Shown here piece by piece: positions 10,301 to 26,300 of a DNA stretch of 64,000 nucleotides. Below the pieces are notes generated by a model that made no database searches, was not told where the DNA came from, and saw only the letters and a program-made list of their open reading frames with translations. Numbering within the stretch: the stretch's first letter is position 1; each line of letters opens with the position of its first letter. Origin of the DNA: Protonemura montana (Eukaryota; Arthropoda; Insecta; Plecoptera; Nemouridae); the NCBI GenBank assembly GCA_947568835.1, contig OX387608.1:14360001-14424000 (forward strand), in the 5' to 3' direction. The translations under genes were made by a program, and so were the position numbers.

Positions 10301-13300
10301 TTGATTCTCTTTGACATCAGTGGGTAAAACGTGTCCGCATCTGGTTTACCATCCTCCCATCAAAGCTAGATAAAGATCATTATTATATTAATTATCTCCC
10401 ACTAATTTATCGACCCCATTTTGACCATACCACATGGTCCTTCGTCAAAAAGTGCGTCGTTGAAAAACAAAAATCAATCAATGAAACAGATCTATGACCG
10501 TGGTACCATCTACCATCCCTGAAATGACGTGCTTTATTTTGTTTTACAGATGGTTCAACTCAACTGGGTGTACATGATGTGCAAAATAATCGATCTCCTC
10601 GACACAGTCAGTATACTTTTTTTTAAAGTACACCGAAATACACCAACATGAATGATACGAATCCAAACATTGAAGTTATTTTATTTATTTATTTTGAATT
10701 ACAATTTGTACAGCTAATTCCTAGTTACAAATCAAGTTATTGTTAGTTAGAGTATCAACGGTGAATGTCTAAGTATTTTTTACTAATGCTAACCTCAACT
10801 ATTGATAAACATGTATCAATATTTTGAGTCGTTATTATTTGTTTGTAGAGGTTGTAACGTTCCCGCCATTTTGTGCGGTTAGTAACCTGTCCCTTCACCG
10901 AGGCAGGCAGGTAGATAGACGACCCTGAAGGGCTGCGACACCGAGAAGAGTCAGTTGACTTCGGTCCTTCAAGTTTATCACCGGTCGGCCGTAATAACAT
11001 CTCTTTTAATAAATCATTGTTTTCGTCCTAACTTTTGGCTTCGTTTCTCTATTCTGATAACCAAAACCTTACAAGGTTTGCTAAAAAGAACAGTCACAGA
11101 TTCAGATTGTGGCCACAAGCATCCCCTTCGTGTTGAAAGCTCTAGATCGTATAGCATTAGCACTGTGACTCTGACTACCTAATAGGCCAACGATCGATTA
11201 GAAAGAAATGGAGACTGTTTTTCTTCGTATTTTTTTTTGCAGGTACAATATTTAATCAACATACCTCTGTGCAGGTCTTCTTCGTGCTTCGCAAGAAAGA
11301 CAAACAGCTGTCCACTTTGCATCTGTATCACCACACCATCATGCCAATCTTTGCTTGGGTAGCCGCCAAATACCTGCCAGGTGAGACCACTGTTACAATC
11401 ACATATAAAAGGGCCAGCACGGCGACGGCTTTCACCAATTTCTTTGAATTTGTATGACATTTTTATTCATATTTCAACTTTGTGACCCCTCAAGTTTTCC
11501 GTTATTGTTAGTTTACTTGACTTCTGCACGATTGGTTGAGCTCTGTTTTCTTTTTCAATGAACATTTGCAAGTTTGTCCTCAAGTTTTGTTTTATTTTAT
11601 CGCCTTAACAAAATTGAAAACACGAGGAATTTTGTTAAGTAGCGACATTGGGTTTACAGGTTTACTCAAAGTCTCAGCGCTACTGTAACACGTTTTACTG
11701 AGCAAACGAGCTGATAACTGACGGTTATGGTAGCTGCCATCCGATGGCGCTCGCGGAAAAGCACAGTGAAATTAAATAATTACGAATTAAAATATAAAGC
11801 AATACGTATCAATCGTTGAGGGTAGAATCGTTAAAAATTATTGCAGCTTAAGCCAGTCTTAAATGCTATTAATCTGAGAGAAATAACAAAATACAAATCT
11901 AAAATCTCAACATACAGCGACTTTTACTTTTCGCGACTTCGATTTTCGTCGAAATTAGTATCTTAAAATTAGCACTAGGACTCTGACTGAACCTGCAAGT
12001 CAATGGGAGCGAGTCGAAGCCATGCCCCTATGTTCCCCTTCCTGAAGGTTACAGCGAACGGTTTGGCGTGTTGGAAACACCGGTTCTCATGAGATCACCG
12101 AAGTTAAGCAACACTGCGCTGGGTCAGGTATTGGATGGGTGACCATCATACACATGACCAGTTCTGTTCGGCAGAGAGGTTGGAGGGATGAAAGTTAGCA
12201 CAGTAACTTCATTTGCCTTGCTTATCAACCTCTCGACAGCATGAATTTGTAGAGGAATCCTGTTGTTCGAGTTGTACCGTCCTTCGGAAGGGACGTTAAA
12301 CCGGTGGTCCCCTTGGTGCTCTACGACAGGAGTAGGCTACGTGCCGGCGCCAGGTTTCCCCTCCTCCATTCTAGGCTAGGTTAGGTTCATCATCATTCTC
12401 ATCATCATCCACTCATTCACCGACGCCATTAGACCAGTGCCGCATGGTCAGATGTCAAAACAGTGCGTCGTTAAACACCACAAATAAAGAAATAACTGAG
12501 TTCCCTGCGGTGCTTCCCGTCCAACTACCTCATGACTTGCACTCTGTATTTCTCTTCCAGGAGGTTACAGCGTTTTCCCGGGGCTGGTGAACGCGTTCAT
12601 TCACGTAGTGATGTACGTGTACTACTTCTTGGCTGCTCTAGGACCCGAGTACCAGAAGTACATCTGGTGGAAGAAGTATTTGACGTCAATGCAGATGGTG
12701 AGCCCGCAAAATTCCATTCACCTTGGCCAAGATGCTCTGACTGCATTGACATTGAGACAAGATTCAGTAATGGAAGAAAGCTAACTAATGAATGTCCCGC
12801 TTGTCGTATGATTTTCTTACGTCTGCTACATACCAATTTAGTGGTAGGAGACAAGTGCATTTCACGTTTCGCAGCCGTGGAAGCGCCGGATTTAAGGCTC
12901 AACCACAATCACCTCCTTAAACAAAAGCTTTGCCACTTGGATTTTCGTAAGCCTCGCTTCAGCAAACAGAAGAACATATGAAACGTAGACATAACATAAG
13001 CGAACAGTTTGACAGCTCAACATTTTTGTTTACGGCAACTGTCTATAGAATGTCAGAAGGTACCAAATGGAAACACGCTAAAGCCATTTTTGCCATAATA
13101 ACATTATTACTTCTCTCACCGGCTGGACTACACATTTTTTTTTCTCTTAAAGTCAGAGCCAATTGGATTCACCTATTTGAAAAAAAAACGATCTAAAATC
13201 GGTTAGAAAACAAATCAGCTAGTTTCCGGCCTCCTTGAAGGCACCAACTTATCACCATGTTCTGAACGAACCACATTTAAGCATTATGCTATTTTAAATT

Positions 13301-13636: not shown

Positions 13637-14355
13637 TCGAACTCTAGCTAAATAAGCACAGACTAGAGTGCGTTTTATCAGAGAGGTCACCGGCAACGAC
13701 TCTAGATAGTGATCAGGGGAGGCGGTTGTGACCACAAAACAATGACTTCTTCAATGAAGTTAAATTTAATTCCTATAAAGCTAGTGATGGCTACACCTTT
13801 CACATGTTCTCATATGGATAAGGGATATAAATTATTGGTTTCCTGTTAACACATACTTACTCTTTGGTCTGTTTAAGTGTTCTTTTAATCCCGTAGACGG
13901 TCCAAGCGGTCATAAATTAAACCATTGAAATAATTCCAGTATGCAAATGTGTCTTTGGTTGCGACTATTAAAAAGTTTGATGATTTAAAAAATGCAAACC
14001 GAGTATATATCTTAAACGTGGTTTAAAACAAATATATTTAAATAAAAAAAAGGTAACCATGAAAATTGAATTTCCCTTTGCACTGTTTGTTTTTAAATGT
14101 GTTTGCTATTAGATCTTGATCTTTAGGAATAGCTTTTATCATTCTGTGGTAGGCTACAAGCCATATTAATATCCCTGCATGTGATTGGTAACTGTTTGTA
14201 CATCCACATCAACTTCCTCAGAGACTGGCAATTCGATGGATTATGAAATCTTAGGAGGCCAGAAAGATAACCGCTCGTATTTTCTTGAGCTAGGGCCGGA
14301 GCCATAAAGTTATATAGTTATCACGATGGTAACAACCAGTGTTTTCTCTAAGCTG
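13637..14355 (+). other. 3' UTR and downstream flank of the elongase
   Basis: An AATAAA at 14041-14046, followed by an A run, is a good polyadenylation signal candidate and would give a 3' UTR of about 420 nt. No other feature is seen to 14355. Confidence 0.4.
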
Positions 14356-14990
14356 TAGCCGAACGGTTTTGCTTGTTGAAACACTAGTTCTCATGAGACC
14401 ACCACTGCGCTGGGTCTGGTATTGAATGGTTGACCATCATACACATGACCAGTTCTGTTCGGGAGAGAGGTTGGAGAGATGAAAGTTAAGCAACACTGCG
14501 CTGGGTCTGGTATTGAATGGTTCACCATCATACACATGACCAGTTCTGTTCGGGAGAGAGGTTGGAGAGATGAAAGTTAAGCAACACTGCGCTGGGTCAG
14601 GTATTGGATGGGTGACCATCATACACATGACCAGTTCTGTTCGGGAGAGAGGTTGGAGAGATGAAAGTTAAGCAACACTGCGCTGGGTCAGGTATTGGAT
14701 GGTTGACCATCATACACATGACCAGTTCTGTTCGGGAGAGAGGTTGGAGAGATGAAATTTAAGCAACACTGTGCTGGGTCCGATATTGAATGGTTGACCA
14801 TCATACACATGACCAGTTCTGTTCGGGAGAGAGGTTGGAGAGATGAAAGTTAAGCAACACTGCGCTGGGTCAGGTATTGGATGGGTGACCATCATATACA
14901 TGAACAGTTCTGCTTGGGATAGAGGTTGGAGGGATACAAGTTAGTACTGAAGCTTCATTCGCCTTGCTTATCCACCTCTCGACACAGTGG
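14356..14990 (+). mobile_element. 5S-derived SINE with 91-bp tandem expansion (plus)
   Basis: A degraded 5S head at 14356 is followed by about six repeats of a 91-bp unit, with GTTAAGCAACACTG starting at 14485, 14576, 14667, 14758 and 14849. The unit is the same SINE segment as in the array at 6481-7027, in the opposite orientation. The body stops at CCTCTCGACA, where the hAT-like element begins. Confidence 0.85.
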
Positions 14991-15756
14991 CGTAACTAGG
15001 TATCTCTGGGCCCGGGGGCAAGATTTTTCGTTTGGCCCCCATTTCCCCCCCCCCCCCCCATCCCCCTCCCCAACACTAAAGAAGGAGTCTGAAAAAAATT
15101 ACCAGTCTAATGTTTCTGTAATGCACACATTTGTATACGTTCACTTGCGAGTGCCGAAAAAGATACAAACAATAAGTATGGTTGCTAGAAATAAACAATA
15201 CTTTGCGATTAAGTAATTATTCGAGATCGCAGAAGGCGATCCAAGGTGAAAAATGACGTGTAGATGTTTCCAGACACGAATTAAATTTGCCCCGGGGGTA
15301 GATGCCCTTGATATTAACGGCTAATTGTAGTTTTTCTGTCAGCAAATAGCCAACACGGTTGGCAATGTGCGTCATCATGTGTAGGTGAATAGCCAAGCCC
15401 CGTTTTATATTTGGTTTCATAGTAGCTAGCAGAAAATCTTCGTTTTGACTCAGTTCAAGTAGGAGAAGACAACGAAGTACGACACAAGCCCTTGTCAACA
15501 AGGAAATATTTCGTACGGGCAACAACGATGTCCGGGTCATGCTAGCGAGGAGTTGGATTATTCATTATTTCTTCGTGTCGGGAAATTTGGGCAGTTCTGA
15601 CATGACGACAACCCAAATATTTCAGTCTCATTCGCGTTCTGAGACAACTGAAAGATAGCGTTATCAAACTTAATATGCAGTGATATTCACATCAAAGTGA
15701 CAACTGATTGAGAAAGTATGATAGATTTAAGATCCAAGGGACCGCATACTAAACAA
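14990..15756 (-). mobile_element. hAT-like non-autonomous element, copy 1
   Basis: The outer end reads CAGTGGCGTAACTAGG, a terminus style common in hAT elements, followed by a GGGCCCGGGGGCAAG block and a C run at about 15043-15059. The region to 15756 matches 33688-34433 in reverse orientation. A 107-codon frame at 15217-15540 (minus) aligns with a frame in copy 2, sharing GLAIHLH and NRVGYLLTE. I do not recognise that peptide. Target-site duplication not verified. Confidence 0.6.
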
Positions 15757-16245
15757 TCAATCTAAGCTGTGCACCTGTGCGTGATCACACAGCTCCTTCA
15801 AATGGAGCATTGCTAGTGTTTGCAATGCTGTAGCCATTCTTTGCGCTACAGACTCTTGGGCTTGGGCTTGGACTTCAATTTTTGAGACGGTATTAGTGTT
15901 CTTAATAATAAAATACCCCGCGCATTGCTAGCGTTTGCAATTTAAATAAGATTTGAAGTCAAAAAAATCATGAAACACATTTTATTGATGAATTCAATGG
16001 CGGGATTTGAAAAAAAACGAGTTTGCACAAGAAATGTATCCCCAAGATTGTTATTTCCTTATGCGAGATCATATATTTGATGATTTATAAGTAATACAGA
16101 CATTTTAATAACTTCATTTGGGCAAAAACAATAGGCGTCGGTCTAAATACCGTTAGGTGGGACAAAACTATTTTAATTTCCCTTCAAAGTTGCACAGCCA
16201 TTGCGTTCATAACCATCTGAAAATTAGGGGTACGTAATTATAACA
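15757..16245 (+). repeat. Intergenic with a tRNA-repeat tail
   Basis: At about 15868-15957 lies the tail of the tRNA-derived family: CAATTTTTGAGACGG, AATAATAAAATACCCCGCGC, GCGTTTGCAATTTAAAT. Its tRNA head is missing. The rest has no recognised feature. Confidence 0.5.
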
Positions 16246-16346
16246 AAAACTATTTGAAATGGGTTTTGAATGCTAAGTAAAGTACAACCAAATTTCCCGA
16301 CGTTTCGTAACATATACTAATTCAACTAGACATGAGTCTAAAAACT
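16246..16346. mobile_element. MITE-like inverted-repeat element, copy 2
   Basis: AACTATTTGAAATGGGTTTT at 16249 on the left and the terminus AGACATGAGTCTAAAAAC at the right. The middle is short and both arms are incomplete. Confidence 0.55.
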
Positions 16347-17141: not shown

Positions 17142-17309
17142 TTTTAGACTCATGTCTACTTGATTCATTCTTAGCACTAGTTTTAACAAAAACTATTTGA
17201 AATGGGTTTTGAATGCTAAGTAAAGTACATGAATTTGGTTCTTAATTTAGAATTTAGTTATTATAAATTTATTTGTCCTTTACTCATTCAAAACCCATTT
17301 CAAATAGTC
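17142..17309. mobile_element. MITE-like inverted-repeat element, copy 3
   Basis: Full left arm of about 88 bp: TTTTTAGACTCATGTCTAC, then TTAGCACTAGTTTTAA, then AACTATTTGAAATGGGTTTT. The right arm (17277-17309) is truncated after CCATTTCAAATAG. It ends three bases before the stop codon of the DUF6119-like gene. Confidence 0.7.
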
Positions 17310-17312
17310 TAA

Positions 17313-19391
17313 CTAATTTTGCGCTACAGGAATGAAAGTAACTTTGAACTGAAACGAACACTTGAGAACAACGCTCATTGTTTGGTAGATTGCTACCACT
17401 TTGTTATCTATAAGATAATTATCAGGCTGTGCGTTTGTGATTATCGCCAGCACGAAGGTGATTTTTTTCCTTTCATTTCGTTTAAGTAACCCTTTCGTGT
17501 GGTTTGTGAAAACCTTGTTCTCTTCTAGTTGGTACAATAAACTTTCTAATGTGGTTCTCATCGTGTTTAATTTCGTATCGTCATTGGAACGTGCATCCCT
17601 TGGAGTGGACAAATAGTCGAACACGAAGTCAAGCCACTGGTACAATGCGTCATCATACGCGCTCATTTCTTTATAGGCATCATTCGACTCTCCCAATCTA
17701 ACAACTTTATCTCGGATCTTTCGAATTTTTTGATGTCTTAACGAATTCAGTGTTTCCGTGATATTGTTTTGAAACTTAATAATTCCTCCATTAAATTTCT
17801 TCTGAAAGAATGAGCATTTTTCGGTTTGTAGGTTTACATATTCTGTGTACTGTAGCTTGATAAAGGATTTTGTCAAGCAGCTGATAGACGCGCTCCTATC
17901 TAAGTTGTCCGACATAAAATTTGCGGACCTGATTATTTGCTGACAATGGTGGTCTAGGTCTGTTGCTTGCCCTCTCTTTACATGGATGAGATAAGAACGG
18001 CCTTCATTTATTTTAAGTAGTATATCTGCTAGCTCGAACTTGTTGCGCGAGCTCACTTCTACATTTATCTTGTCCAAAAGGATAGCTTTCAATATGAACT
18101 TAGCATTTTGTGCTGACTTCATATTCTCTACTGCGGATATATTGTATGCGTCTTCTGGCTGCCTCAACCCCGCTGCTGGCGATAAGAATAGATCTTTACT
18201 GTTGATTTTCTGGGCCATTATTTCTTTCTTTTTCCTTGAAATCATACTTCGGGGCATCTCATACCACTTTCCGGCGTCCTTTCGATAAAATGTCTCACCG
18301 TAATTAATGCAGGATACACTGATCAGGTTTGTAAGCTCATACTTTTCACCTCCTATTCGCACCTTAGCCGTAGATTTTCCTTTCGTCATTTTGATTAGAA
18401 AATTTTCTTTCTCTTTTATTTGATCTTTACGAGGGACTCTGTAAAGGATGGGCCAAAAATTTTCGCCCGTTACGATAATACCGTCATTTACATATTGTTG
18501 CCAAGATTGGTCCAAATTTAAATCAAGCGCGGTTGCAATTTGGCTACTTGAGTCTAAAGAAGGTTCAAAAAATGACTCAAAATCTTGTAAAACTGTGTCT
18601 TCTTTATAAATTTTATAAAATTTATATGCTTGATCTCGAAGGTCCTTGATGTAATCCTTTTTCAATTGCGATCGATTTGCTGGTAACTTGAAATTGAATT
18701 TGATTTTATTACCTCCGTGGACAAGCTGTGTGTTTATGTCCTTTTTCGGCAAGATACGCAGCCCTTCCAGACTCCCTGTAGCCTCCTTGAGCGCCTCATA
18801 GAAAGTACCTAATTTTTTTAGTGCGCTGGTAGAGTGTGTGACGTTATCATTGCGGTACATGGTCATATCAATCGATTTAATCGTCTCTAATGGTATTCCC
18901 TCTTTCTTATCAGACATTCCTGCCGACACCATCGTCTTAACCCCAAAATCTTTAACAATGGCAGCATCATTAATCATACCGAACCAATTTCCGAAAAGAT
19001 AAGCAAGCGCTAAATCCGGATTACCTTCTAAAGTAAATAAAAGGGCTGATGCAGAATACTGTGGGGCGTCACTTGCACGAATTTCCTGCTGCCATTTCTT
19101 GTGTGAGTCGGCCAGAAAAAACTTCAAGAGTCTTTCAGGCTCCCATGATTCTGGCTGCTTCTTGAAATATGCTATAACTTCATATTGGTCTTCAGAGAAT
19201 TTCTTATATTGTAAATTTTCGCTGTTACGCAGCGAGTATTTAACAAACAGCTTATAGTTGGAGTATTTTTGATTACAGGCTTGTTGTTTAAGCTGTCCTT
19301 TGTCCAAGAGAGCTAGGACGAATTGTCTTGTCAATACGTCATCTTTTTTCATCCTTTTGGATGACTGCTGACCGGGCTCTTCTGTCTCCAT
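17313..19391 (-). CDS. TIGR04141/DUF6119-like protein, putative nuclease-fold, intronless
   Basis: A single uninterrupted frame of 692 codons, unlike every other gene here. I start it at METEEPG (19391), because just upstream on minus lies CCTTGTTCCAG|GA, a good 3' splice site, so the extra 34 in-frame residues up to 19493 are probably intron. The order of blocks recalls the bacterial 'sporadically distributed protein' family (TIGR04141, DUF6119): an N-terminal part with LALAYLFGNWFG, then DFGVKTMV and IKSIDMTMYRN, later FELADIL (Asp456) and LIHVKRG (His470, Lys472) followed by a DLDHHCQQIIRSA helix. The Asp...His-x-Lys spacing is reminiscent of a PD-(D/E)XK core, which is inference. The C-terminus is Lys/Arg-rich. 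It lies between inverted copies of one transposon end (17142 and 21494), suggesting mobile cargo or a transferred gene. Family call is from memory of the pattern. Confidence 0.65.
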   Translation of the reverse strand: METEEPGQQSSKRMKKDDVLTRQFVLALLDKGQLKQQACNQKYSNYKLFVKYSLRNSENLQYKKFSEDQYEVIAYFKKQPESWEPERLLKFFLADSHKKWQQEIRASDAPQYSASALLFTLEGNPDLALAYLFGNWFGMINDAAIVKDFGVKTMVSAGMSDKKEGIPLETIKSIDMTMYRNDNVTHSTSALKKLGTFYEALKEATGSLEGLRILPKKDINTQLVHGGNKIKFNFKLPANRSQLKKDYIKDLRDQAYKFYKIYKEDTVLQDFESFFEPSLDSSSQIATALDLNLDQSWQQYVNDGIIVTGENFWPILYRVPRKDQIKEKENFLIKMTKGKSTAKVRIGGEKYELTNLISVSCINYGETFYRKDAGKWYEMPRSMISRKKKEIMAQKINSKDLFLSPAAGLRQPEDAYNISAVENMKSAQNAKFILKAILLDKINVEVSSRNKFELADILLKINEGRSYLIHVKRGQATDLDHHCQQIIRSANFMSDNLDRSASISCLTKSFIKLQYTEYVNLQTEKCSFFQKKFNGGIIKFQNNITETLNSLRHQKIRKIRDKVVRLGESNDAYKEMSAYDDALYQWLDFVFDYLSTPRDARSNDDTKLNTMRTTLESLLYQLEENKVFTNHTKGLLKRNERKKITFVLAIITNAQPDNYLIDNKVVAIYQTMSVVLKCSFQFKVTFIPVAQN

Positions 19392-19395
19392 TCCT

Positions 19396-20319
19396 GGAAC
19401 AAGGCAAACAGGCATGTGACCGAAAAAAATTGTTAGGCTGTAGGATATCAGCTCAAAATTCCAAGAATTACGCAAGTAAGGGGAAAGAACCATAACCTCT
19501 TGAAAATCCGTCTCAGATTCGAAAAACTCGTCAAATTAGTATTTGCCCTTCTCACGTGATTGCAGTAAGCGCAGGTAAAGTTTATTGATATTTTTCTTTT
19601 TCCTGATTAAATAATAAAATTATTGTGGTCAAAATCAAGAAACAGACAATTTACTTTATCTCGTACCTTGTTCCGATCTTGGTTAAATATGAGATTTTTT
19701 TTGCAATCATTTTGACAAGTGGCAAAAAACAACATTTTCGAACTGTGTAATTTTTTATCGGCAACTAACTTGATACTAATTTGCTATAAAACTTTAATCA
19801 CACTGCCAGGAAACATCTAAAAAAATAACAAGTCTGAAATCCCTGGGGGATCCTTCTAGTTATCGACAGAAACAGCTATAGGGTAGTTTTGTACAGGGGT
19901 GATTTTCATATCAAATGGGAAATGTCACACCCTCCCTGTCATGCCCACACTCTTGGATGGTATATCCCGGATGTGTGCCTTCATCCTAGAGTACTAGAGT
20001 CCTAGAGTACTTACTACCTAAAGTAGGTTTAGGTCCTCAATGATTGATTTCGACTTTCAGAATATGTCGATGAAAAATTCAAATTGAGTGCACGCGATGT
20101 AATTAGGTGTCCTCGTGAGTGGATTATATTCAGGCGTATCATCATCTAATTAATATATAAAACTGAAACGGAGTCAAATTCAAATTGAGTCAACGTCAAA
20201 TTGGAGTTATTCGAGTTTGACAGGTTGTGACGTGATATAGCGTCACTAGAATCAGAGTGACTGTGAGTATTCACAGCCTCTTGGTTCTACTCCTTGGAGA
20301 ACTGTCATTCTCATCATTT
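19396..20319. other. Upstream of the DUF6119-like gene
   Basis: AT-rich. It may hold a 5' UTR intron of the gene on minus. No other coding sequence or repeat seen. Confidence 0.3.
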
Positions 20320-20515
20320 ACACTAAAATCATCCCAAAAAGCCAGTGTCCAAGTAGCTCAATGGTTTAGAGCAACAACCGCGATAGGTGGAGATCGGGGT
20401 TTAGAGTCCGCGTTTGGGCATCAATTTTTGAGACGGTTATATTGTTCATAATAATAAAATACCCCGCACATTGCACTAGCGTTTGCAATTTAATTAAGAT
20501 TTCATCTTAGTATTT
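20320..20515 (+). mobile_element. tRNA-derived repeat, near full length
   Basis: Begins ACACTAAAATCATCCCAAAA, then GTCCAAGTAGCTCAATGG (A box) and a damaged B box GGGGTTTAGAGTCCGCG, then the tail with CAATTTTTGAGACGG, AATAATAAAATACCCCGC and GCGTTTGCAATTTAAT. The tRNA-like head folds with paired acceptor and D arms. Confidence 0.7.
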
Positions 20516-21494: not shown

Positions 21495-21867
21495 ATAAGG
21501 ATCAAGGATACTTACCAAAGACGGTTTTTTTCTTCTCACTGGTTTAGTAAAACGACCTGTGAGGTGTGAAGGTGCTTGTATCAATCCAACTGATTACTTA
21601 GTTCGCAATCCGAGTCGTCACCTCATCTAAACCCTTGTTATCAGATGGTCTTAAAATAACGCGGCTATTGACGATAACTTTGACAGAGTAATTAGACTTT
21701 AGAGAGAGGGAAAGAGAGATTAACAAGGCTGATAACCAATTGGTATCTTTATCACAAAAGTTGCACAATCACCCACCTGGACTGGTTGTTTTTCCTCGTA
21801 GCCAAATGGATCCCCCCGCCCCTTGCCCGAGGCTGGAGTTTGATGCATCATAGTTGCTTGTATCGGA
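21495..21867. other. Intergenic, nothing recognised
   Basis: No gene or repeat recognised before the minisatellite begins. Confidence 0.3.
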
Positions 21868-23245
21868 ACTTACTCAGGTCTATTGGAGTGGGAGCTTACT
21901 CAGATCTATTGGACTGGGAGCTTACTCAGGCCTATTGGAGTGGGAGCTTACTCAGATCTATTGGAGTGGGAGCTTACTCAGGTCTATTGGAGTGGGTGCT
22001 TACTCAGGTCTATTGGAGTGGGAGCTTACTCAGGCCTATTGGAGTGGGTGCTTACTCATGTCTATTGGAGTGGGAGCTTACTCAGGTATATTGGAGTGGG
22101 AGCTTACTCAGATCTATTGGAGTGGGAGCTTACTCAGGTCTATTGGAGTGGGTGCTTACTCAGGTCTATTGGAGTGGGAGCTTACTCAGGCCTATTGGAG
22201 TGGGTGCTTACTCATGTCTATTGGAGTGGGAGCTTACTCAGGTATATTGGAGTGGGTGCTTACTCAGGTCTATTGGAGTGGGTGCTTACTCAGGTCTATT
22301 GGAGTGGGAGCTTACTCAGGTATATTGGAGTGGGAGCTTACTCAGGTCTATTTGAGTGGGAGCTTACTCAGGTCTATTGGAGTGGGAGCTTACTCAGGTC
22401 AATTGGAGTGGGAGCCTACTCAGGTCTATTGGAGTGGGAGCTTACTCAGGTCTATTGGAGTGGGAGCTTACTCAGGTATTTTGGAGTGGGTGCTTACTCA
22501 GGTATATTGGAGTGGGAGCTTTCTTAGGTCTTTTGGAGTGGGAGCTTACTCAGGTCTATTGGAGTGGGAGCTTACTCAGGTCTATTGGAGTGGGAGCTTA
22601 CTCAGGTCTATTGGAGTGGGAGCTTACTCAGGTCTTTTGGAGTGGGTGCTTACTCAGGTATATTGGAGTGGGAGCTTTCTTAGGTCTTTTGGAGTGGGAG
22701 TTTACTCAGGTCTATTGGAGTGGGAGCTTACTAAGGTCTCTATATTCAAGTTTACTGGATGCAACTAATCAGCCAAACTACTTGTTCGATCGCGACGAAA
22801 CAAAAACTAGGCGACTCATCACACTAAAGGCAACAGATTGACGCGGTTTTTAAGATAAAAAAATAGTATTTCGTCTAAAAGTTACACGCGTTTTAAAAGT
22901 GCCTGTTCAAGACGTTTTACCTGTGTTTCTCTGAGAAAAAAATGTGAGTTTTCGTAGCAGCTGTGACGCTTAAATTTCTTCAATCAGTTCACACTACCAA
23001 ACTTTACACACAAAAAAATATTCGAGCGAACCATTTTGAAAAGCCGCCCTTATTAGTTGTTTCCAGTTTGTATACATAAATACAATATGTTTTTATATAT
23101 TTTTTTCTTTTTAGAACGGATTTTCAGGAAAATGTGCACTAAAAGAGATCTTTATAGTTGCTAAAAAATGTTTGACCAACCCCAATTAAAGACTACTTAC
23201 AAAAGATTTTGTTCCCTGGATTGCCCAGAAAAATAGGAACGAGGC
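21868..23245 (+). repeat. 26-bp minisatellite element, copy B
   Basis: About 33 tandem copies of the 26-bp unit run from 21868 to 22740. The conserved flank follows: GGATGCAACTAATCAGCC, CGATCGCGACGAAACAAAAA, ACGCGTTTTAAAAG, CATTTTGAAAAGCCGCCC and CAGAAAAATAGGAACG. The array is open in all three plus frames (up to about 300 codons) and encodes the same 26-residue period in each, a by-product of unit length. Confidence 0.85.
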
Positions 23246-23383: not shown

Positions 23384-26300
23384 TCACATTTCGGTAACAT
23401 ATCTCTTCGTCGACCACCACAACCCCATTCCCAACATGCACCCCACCATCCAAAACCTCCCCTTAACAGACGTCCCCGACGATGGTGACACAATCACGTT
23501 GATGCCAGTGATGTTGGCGATCCAGTCCGCGTGCTGGCTGACCCTCGTGTACATCGACGCCGTCCCTGTGCCGCAGCCTGAGGTGCTAGACGACGTCGCG
23601 ACGCCAACTAGGCGCCAGACGCCGTTTAGGTTGAGGACCAGAGGGCTGCCGTCGTCGCCCTACGGAAAGGGTAGGGTAACGTTAGGGTTTGGTTGGAAGA
23701 GTTTGAAAGTGACCATTATATACATGACCAGTTCTGTTCGAGAGAGAGGTTGTATCGTAGAGAAAGGACCATTTCTTTCTCTAAGGTTATAGGGATGAAA
23801 TTTAGTGCAGCAACTTCATTCTTCTTAAAAAAATATTTAAAATTGTGTTTTTGAATGCTAGGTTAAAACGATTGCGTTGTTGATTTTTTGACGTTTTTCC
23901 TCTTGGTGAGGTACTTCGAAAAAAGATGGCCCATAAGAATAAAGCAGAGAAATGTTTTGTCCCCATGGGCACCTAGAACATTGGACAGTTTGGAAGGATC
24001 GTTAATCTTCATTCGACATTAGTTGATTTCTCAAGGTCAAAGACACAAAGAAAAAACCGTTGAAAACAAATAAGAATGTGTCAGGATTTGAGAAAATTTC
24101 AACGCTGTTTTCTGGCTAAAGGAAGTGACGTGTGCCCTGGATAAAAATTTAATTTACTTCTTATAAAATTAAAAAAAAAAAACTGCTCGTACGTCGATAG
24201 TCATTCTTTTGTTTGCGTGTTTTGTTTTAAGTTGGTTGTATCGCCTTCATCTTCTTTTTCTGGGGAATGCAGGAAACAAAATACTGTTTTTTATTCTTTA
24301 ATTGGGGTTGATAAAAAGTGTTTGAGCAACTAAAAAAATCTCTTTTAATCCACATTTTCCGGAAAAACCCTTTAAAAAATTATATATATATAAGTATGCA
24401 AACTGGGTACCACTAGTAAGGGAGGCTTTTTAAAATAAATAACTCGAGTATTTTTCTTATGTGTAGTTTGGTGGTTTTTTTTTCAGATTGAAGAAACTCG
24501 TGATCCATAGCTGCTTCGAAAACTAATTTTCCTGCAAAACACCGGAAAAACGCCTTGAACAGACTCTTTTAAAACGCGTGCAACTATAGGACGAAATAAT
24601 ATTTTTGATTTTGAAAAGCGTCAATCTGTTGCCAATAGTGTGATGAGTCGCCTAGTTTTTGTTTCGTCGCGATCGGACAATTAGTTTGGCTGATTGGTTG
24701 CATCCAGTAAGCATATATATATATACCTGAGTAACCTCCCACTCCAATAGACCTGAGTAACCTCCCACTCCAATAGACCTGAGTAAGCTCCCACTCCAAT
24801 AGACCTGAGTAAGCACCCACTCCAATAGGCCTGAGTAAGCACCCACTCCAATAGACCTGAGTAAGCACCCACTCCAATAGGCCTGAGTAAGCACCCACTC
24901 CAATAGGCCTGAGTAAGCTCCCACTCCAATAGACCTGAGTAAGCACCCACTCCAATAGACCTGAGTAAGCTCCCACTCCAATAGACCTGAGTAAGCACCC
25001 ACTCCAATAGACCTGAGTAAGCACCCACTCCAATAGACCTGAGTAAGCACCCACTCCAATAGACCTGAGTATGCACCCACTCCAATAGACCTGAGAAAGC
25101 TCCCACTCCAATAGACCTGAGTAAGCTCCCACTCCAATAGACCTGAGAAAGCTCCCACTCCAATAGACCTGAGTAAGCTTCCACTCCAATAGACCTGAGT
25201 AAGCTACCATTTCAATAGACCTGAGTAAGCTCCCACTCCATTAGATCTGAGTAAGCACCCACTCCAATAGACCTGAGTAAGCTCCCACTCCAACAGACCT
25301 GAGTAAGCTCCCACTCCAATAGACCTGAGAAAGCACCGACACAACAGTCAGATGAGTCTATGTGTAACATTGACATTTAAAACAAACAACGGACTTAAAA
25401 GAATTCCAAAATGACCTACCTCGCAAATTCCCGAAGAGTTGGCACCGGAAGTACACATATGACTGTCATCAATAGTCATTCCCAGATCGTCAGAGCATTT
25501 CCGGTTATCGAGAACAGCCAGTTCCGTCCAATGCAGCGTGGGTGATAGGTTATCCATCACTTAAGAAAGAAAAGTGATTATGATTATGCTATCTGTACGT
25601 ACTTGGTAGGTTACAAATTGTTCCTTCCGGGCAAATAAGGGTGAGAACTTTTTAGATAGAATTCTTGGCTTAATCGCAAACCACGAGTAAACGTTTTGCC
25701 GTGTTGGAAACACTGGTGCTAGTGAGATCACCGAAGTTAAGCAACACTGCGCTGGTTCGTGAAGCCAGCTTTTTAAGCTAGTTACCGTAAAATATTTGCA
25801 AAATATCAGTTTTACACGAGTTATGCGTTTACCCTGGACTAAATCACTTTTTGGATTGGTGACCATCATACTAACAGGTTACTAACGACTAGTCCTATTT
25901 GGGAGAGGTGTTGCAGGGATGAACGTAAGTACAGCCTTGCTGGGCCTTGCCAATCAACGTCTCGACAGCATGGATTTGTGGAGGGATCCTATTGCTCGCG
26001 TTGTACCGTCCTTCGGAAGGGACGTTAAGTCGGTGGTCCCCTTGAGGCTCTTCAACAGGAGTAGGTTACGCGCCGGCACCGGACTACCACTAATTCCTTC
26101 GAGGCTAGGTTAGTTTTTTTTAAAAACTCATATATCTTCTACTGAAATAGAAATGACAATTGACTTGTGCTTCAGAGCCCGTTGCCAAAACGGAGAGTGA
26201 AACCCCACTAATCAATCAATTAAAACCTGCAGATGTCCTAGCGATATCGGCGCAAACGGTAACGAAACGCCGATGACCAATCACAACATAGCAAAACTAT

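Follow-up and report, generated by a model that had tools for sequence, protein, structure and literature searches.

DUF6119 (PF19614) is an uncharacterised protein family, some bacterial members of which sit in restriction loci. In the literature that we searched, the name DUF6119 appears in one paper, as a domain match in one wheat MADS-box gene (PMC10919676). The search yielded neither an account of DUF6119 function nor a description of the family in animals, and it returned no occurrence of 'TIGR04141' or of 'sporadically distributed protein', the number and description of an NCBIfam family. Two systems offer themselves for comparison. Several bacterial members are encoded together with hsdM, hsdS or hsdR, as accessories of type I restriction-modification systems would be. 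The other system is the PD-(D/E)XK superfamily, whose core has the order alpha-beta-beta-beta-alpha-beta, with an acid, a second acid and a lysine.

Here we describe a gene of this family in the insect Protonemura montana. It lies in a stretch of 64,000 nucleotides, called the window below, which comprises bases 14,360,001-14,424,000 of an 18.87-Mb contig in a genome of 258 Mb and 34 contigs. All positions without a contig name refer to the window.

Results

Gene structure and transcription signals

A first-pass annotation, made from the letters of the window, had proposed an intronless gene at 17313-19391 with the block order of a bacterial family. The frame exists and is located on the minus strand, which that annotation had not given, its coding part has no intron, and the DFG, IKSID, FELADIL and LIHVKRG blocks are all found in the translation. 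It runs from a methionine codon at 19391 to a TAG stop at 17315-17313 and is enclosed in a stop-to-stop frame of 740 codons. Going by the base composition of the flanks, stops are expected in 7.3% of codons (0.073 per codon), which gives a random frame of 740 open codons a probability of about 3e-25 and means that the frame is not due to chance. The features of the locus are as follows.

17313..19391, minus strand: single-exon frame coding for the 692-aa DUF6119-family protein (frame and profile matches)
19392..19535, minus strand: 48 more open codons upstream in this frame, with a further in-frame Met at 19493 (frame)
18570..19169, minus strand: stretch matched by PF19614 positions 28-214, including the FG and DFG blocks (29.5 bits, gathering cut-off 27)
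17937..18155, minus strand: putative catalytic core from E413 to Q485, with E413, D440, E453-x-x-D456, H470-x-K472, H481 and Q485 (coordinates computed from residue numbers)
17460..17936, minus strand: extended segment of 159 residues between Q485 and T645, predicted helical with low confidence, partly common to the second host copy (model and alignments)
17331..17459, minus strand: C-terminal beta-alpha-beta block (TFVLAIIT...KVTFI), also retained in the second host copy (alignment and models)
17268..17273, minus strand: poly-A signal AATAAA, within the fold-back repeat (read from the sequence)
17178..17310, no strand: small fold-back repeat just past the stop codon (inverted arm read by eye)
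20340..20502, plus strand: tRNA-like SINE, its tail common to 15868-15954 and to the SINE of the second host copy (SINE reading by eye)

A polypyrimidine tract and a CAG at 19396-19394 end two bases 5' of the start codon (GA-ATG). Because this is a good-looking splice acceptor directly before the ATG, an intron in the 5'-UTR is plausible, with an acceptor and no donor identified. The acceptor-like AG at 19395-19394 also means that the 48-codon upstream extension may in part be intron or UTR. On the other side, the AATAAA starts at 17273, 40 nt beyond the stop, and one arm of the surrounding fold-back repeat (17178-17229) recurs 0.9 kb away as a direct repeat at 16235-16286. Apparently, this is a single-exon gene in working order.

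Host DNA setting

Host repeats, namely tRNA-like SINE copies and 5S-rRNA-like repeats (identities assigned by eye), flank the gene on both sides, the nearest within 1.4 kb. As these flanks belong to the interior of an 18.87-Mb contig, it is very unlikely that the gene reflects contamination or misassembly, with bacterial sequence wrongly incorporated into the contig. Such an error would account for an intronless frame of bacterial type and for its GC content at third codon positions (0.42), which is below the 0.44-0.78 of five open stretches taken by eye as host exons. It does not account for the acceptor-like site and the poly-A signal, or for a second copy on another contig that is broken by a host SINE, and the searches made turned up no close bacterial source.

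We considered the direct repeats at 15868-15954 and 20414-20502 as possible ends of a transposon in which the gene would lie, and rejected them as tails of tRNA-like SINEs. By eye, no hsdM, hsdS or hsdR gene was seen among the open frames of at least 110 codons in the window.

Some further observations concern the window and the assembly as such. At 14309-15034 there is a tandem array of 91-bp units, similar to 5S rRNA by eye, and sequences related to it occur at 12057, 23709 and 25690. A 26-bp satellite forms two arrays in opposite orientation, 21709-22865 and 24591-25462, which are 91% complementary over 744 nt. (TTTGG)n, a repeat in keeping with an insect host, was present at two of the five contig ends read; three contig starts (L078, L080, L082) are without it. 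Nuclear contig C4 contains COX1 copies at 5760925-5762262 (L084) and 5776811-5777755. The former scores exactly like the mitochondrial contig C34 (455.5 bits and 8 TGA each), so mitochondrial DNA has probably been inserted into the nuclear genome here in recent times.

Membership in DUF6119

The first-pass annotation had assigned the gene to TIGR04141/DUF6119 and named a profile search as the check. The DUF6119 half of this assignment holds, and the TIGR04141 model stays blank. Run over the whole 258-Mb genome, PF19614 gives 29.5 bits at this locus (gathering cut-off 27, E 2.4e-5), covering positions 28-214 of 524, and this is its sole match above the cut-off in the host genome. On contig C3, PF19614 has a match below the cut-off (E 1.8), and tblastn with the window protein gave no match there. 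The TIGR04141 model (curated cut-off 35 bits) matches neither the window protein by hmmscan nor the host genome. An hmmscan of the window protein against Pfam, NCBIfam, PHROGs and PADLOC gave no match, in the case of PF19614 probably because of the speed filters of the program; all 17 of 17 bacterial rows match PF19614 by hmmscan.

Bacterial relatives were collected from plasmid records with a 45-aa motif probe. DUF6119 is the annotation in 14 of the 30 records matched by the probe and TIGR04141 in 10; 12 of the 30 were fetched, and 10 of these are annotated. A profile of the 12 plasmid members scores the window protein with 29.6 bits in two positive segments, which are in order, followed by the C-terminal block as a third, collinear segment without score (-2.3 bits). 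A profile of 50 bacterial members, from which the window protein was excluded, gives 48.1 bits, again with two collinear segments (of 23.7 and 35.3 bits), compared with -1.8 bits for the reversed protein and 8.3 bits for the best of 2000 shuffles. In a comparison by hhalign, the window protein matches the bacterial family with 97.7% probability over 336 columns (E 1.6e-12). Identical ORFs and ORFs shorter than 450 aa had been dropped before the 50 bacterial rows, and the 63 used below, were counted.

The conserved positions speak for the same assignment. All eight columns that are invariant in 63 bacterial members are retained (W100, F149, W376, E413, E453, D456, K472 and Q485), as are 13 of the 14 columns conserved in at least 95% of them, with the proviso that the 63-member alignment includes the window protein and so somewhat favours such matches, a bias of which the profile scores are free. 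The match at W100 depends on the alignment, since mostly E or D stands opposite in the 50-member alignment. Histidine occupies the H470 column in 53 of the 63 bacterial members and the H481 column in 59. Against the smaller set of 17 bacterial rows, the protein keeps 22 of 35 invariant columns and loses 13, including the Cys before D456; over the whole consensus it matches at 103 of 476 positions.

The window protein is thus collinear with DUF6119 over most of its length, but it also differs from the bacterial members. It has 692 aa and is encoded in an animal chromosome, whereas bacterial members mostly have 530-600 aa; it is 17-21% identical to the 17 bacterial rows; and its best phmmer score among 87 bacterial ORFs is 19.3 bits. 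The bacterial ExCD motif reads ExAD in the window protein (C455A), which is also the case in 4 of 50 bacterial members. The 159 residues from Q485 to T645 compare with at most 103 in bacteria (median 80), or 81 in another alignment. We regard membership of the window protein in the DUF6119 family as practically certain.

Distribution and neighbours of the bacterial members

Both the patchy distribution of the bacterial family and its occurrence near defence and mobile loci, which the first-pass annotation had mentioned, are supported. In four phylum samples, each of which contains its own centre genome, already known as a carrier, the family was found in 8 of 299, 11 of 398, 12 of 396 and 5 of 199 genomes, or 36 of 1292 in all. 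This distribution bears on the idea that animals or other eukaryotes commonly carry DUF6119 genes as an old inheritance and that the window gene is an ordinary member. The distance of the window sequence from every bacterial member would agree with this idea; however, the sporadic bacterial distribution fits transfer, and our literature search returned no description of the family in animals, which makes old inheritance unlikely.

Members are found on plasmids, and restriction genes are close by at 7 of 21 bacterial loci (10 plasmid and 11 genome loci). Type I restriction operons contain or adjoin the member at 4 of the 10 annotated plasmid loci (L014, L015, L017, L022), and 3 of 11 genome loci have HsdM, HsdS, HsdR or GmrSD neighbours (L040, L042, L049), the flanks having been scanned at 11 of 28 genome loci with chosen ORFs (20 ORFs). 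At the remaining 14 of the 21 loci, no restriction genes are found in the scanned or annotated part, except for a DNA methyltransferase 3.5 kb from the member at L018. Two neighbourhoods may be singled out: the bacterial DUF6119 gene at L042:9221-11491 adjoins a GmrSD-type endonuclease, and that at L028:6862-7944 adjoins a DUF6414 protein. The PADLOC models do not match any of seven bacterial members that were compared with them.

A second host copy, age and constraint

Only two places with the family were detected in the host genome. The second, C1:15742134-15742445, encodes the C-terminal part and is 39-40% identical to the window protein. Its reading resumes upstream across a SINE bounded by a duplicated 11-mer, GCATGCGATCG, so the SINE interrupts this copy. 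In 103 codons that can be aligned, the window gene and the second copy differ at 54 first, 30 second and 63 third positions (0.52, 0.29 and 0.61), a pattern that points to protein constraint. The lengthening seems to be common to both host copies, since the second covers the last part of the 159-residue stretch.

Six short peptide patterns, which would miss distant relatives, found no relative of the window protein in viral contigs and genome contigs; phages (three records) and plasmids (one record), the Natronococcus and Klebsiella phage hits among them, gave matches at chance level only (E 2-9); and when 1892 bases were compared with E. coli genomes by megablast, there was no match. In a tree, the window protein stands beside a mostly gammaproteobacterial group (support 92/88) on a branch of 5.93 changes per site. 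Because of the length of this branch, we make no use of the position.

It is conceivable that the gene did not arrive straight from bacteria but was carried in by a DNA virus or a eukaryotic mobile element, of which it would now be a relic or a domesticated copy. The lack of introns, the long branch, the repeat-rich surroundings and the interrupted second copy would all suit such a route. That just two places were found in the genome does not, nor does the failure to find terminal repeats enclosing the gene, the flanking direct repeats being SINE tails; the peptide patterns found no relative in viral contigs, within the limit stated for them, and the phage records matched by chance only. We therefore consider this route quite improbable.

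The first-pass annotation had taken a long, undamaged frame in repeat-rich DNA as a sign of recent transfer or active maintenance. Recent transfer gets no support from the searches, which found no close prokaryotic relative, or from the second copy, which is only about 40% identical and interrupted by a SINE. The divergence of this copy and the lengthening that both seem to have in common fit one old acquisition, followed by modification and then duplication. Both copies could also derive from one unsampled source by two independent transfers, and the lower third-position GC content could point to a younger arrival. Given its distance from all the bacterial copies examined, the window gene is probably an old acquisition that has been retained for some function. 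Ancient acquisition with constraint is, in our judgement, likely.

Fold and putative active site

The model of the window protein is poor on the whole (mean pLDDT 53), although residues 361-510 and 641-690 reach fair to good quality. The model of a bacterial member, L038, is confident (mean pLDDT 82, pTM 0.79). Its C-terminal half has a helix at 374-384 (with E374), a strand at 389-391 (then D393), a strand at 411-413 (after E407-x-x-D410), a strand at 417-423 (with H420-x-K422), a helix at 431-446 (with H432 and Q436), a strand at 477-484, and then a helix and a strand. In this model, the order of elements appears to be that of the PD-(D/E)XK core, with a D-x9-HxK spacing, and E, ExxD, HxK and Q come to lie at the expected places. 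Unlike the classical motif, the window protein has H470 in place of the D or E two residues before the lysine.

At E <= 0.001, Foldseek found no match for the window model in the PDB and none for the L038 model in the PDB and a viral library. Among weaker PDB matches of the L038 model are 4g6u_A (probability 0.75, E 0.08) and 2bhn_A (0.23, E 0.36), which we take to be nucleases of the PD-(D/E)XK superfamily; unrelated proteins rank above them. Sequence searches of the PDB were blank for the window protein and gave one chance match for the family profile (E 1.3). The idea of a nuclease domain common with the N-terminal regions of HsdR was dropped, as hhalign gave 0.07% against five such regions.

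A PD-(D/E)XK-like site formed by Asp456, His470 and Lys472 had been proposed, with fold prediction as the check. The residues bear this out in part, D456 and K472 being present in 63 of 63 bacterial members and His in 53 of 63 at the position of H470, and the modelled topology is plausible, but the structural comparison did not add a significant match. Since the core order fits and no solved structure matches significantly, nuclease-like chemistry is plausible but unproven, and we would rate its chances slightly below even. The protein could instead be ancient and constrained without being a nuclease, its core serving as a module that binds or senses nucleic acids or small molecules. This alternative is a serious possibility, if not the one we would bet on: it would explain why no solved nuclease matches significantly, why the motif has H where the classical D or E stands and why the HsdR regions are so dissimilar, but it sits less well with the catalytic look of E453, D456, K472 and Q485, all invariant in 63 of 63 members, with the element order and spacing suggested by the L038 model, and with the weak matches to the two presumed nucleases.

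Discussion

The window protein is homologous to the bacterial family over most of its length, is encoded in host DNA, has a diverged second copy in the same genome and keeps all residues that are invariant in the family. It is a genuine and intact, if divergent, member of DUF6119 in an animal chromosome, and the acquisition is probably old, not recent, with the protein probably under constraint. Our preferred reading, to which we give a probability of roughly 60%, is that of an anciently acquired, constrained animal DUF6119 protein that is probably a domesticated nuclease-like defence factor.

We propose that the host lineage acquired, long ago, a prokaryotic DUF6119 gene of a kind that in bacteria sometimes accompanies restriction loci as an accessory. 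The part ahead of the C-terminal block would then have grown beyond its length in the bacterial members, and the gene would have been duplicated at least once, with purifying selection keeping the copy on the window chromosome intact. Its core may be PD-(D/E)XK-like, with E453/D456 and K472 as a metal and phosphate site and H470 replacing the usual acid. In the animal cell, the protein may cut or bind nucleic acid that is foreign or damaged, and its bacterial relatives may do likewise in restriction loci. The bolder version of this model, in which an insect has domesticated a bacterial, restriction-associated nuclease family as a defence or genome-guard protein that cuts nucleic acids cell-autonomously and has an added animal-specific helical module, seems to us rather unlikely.

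If an intact and constrained animal copy is indeed what the window contains, it would add to the cases in which animals have put bacterial defence genes to new use, and the invariant residues that it has retained mark sites for functional testing in both kingdoms.
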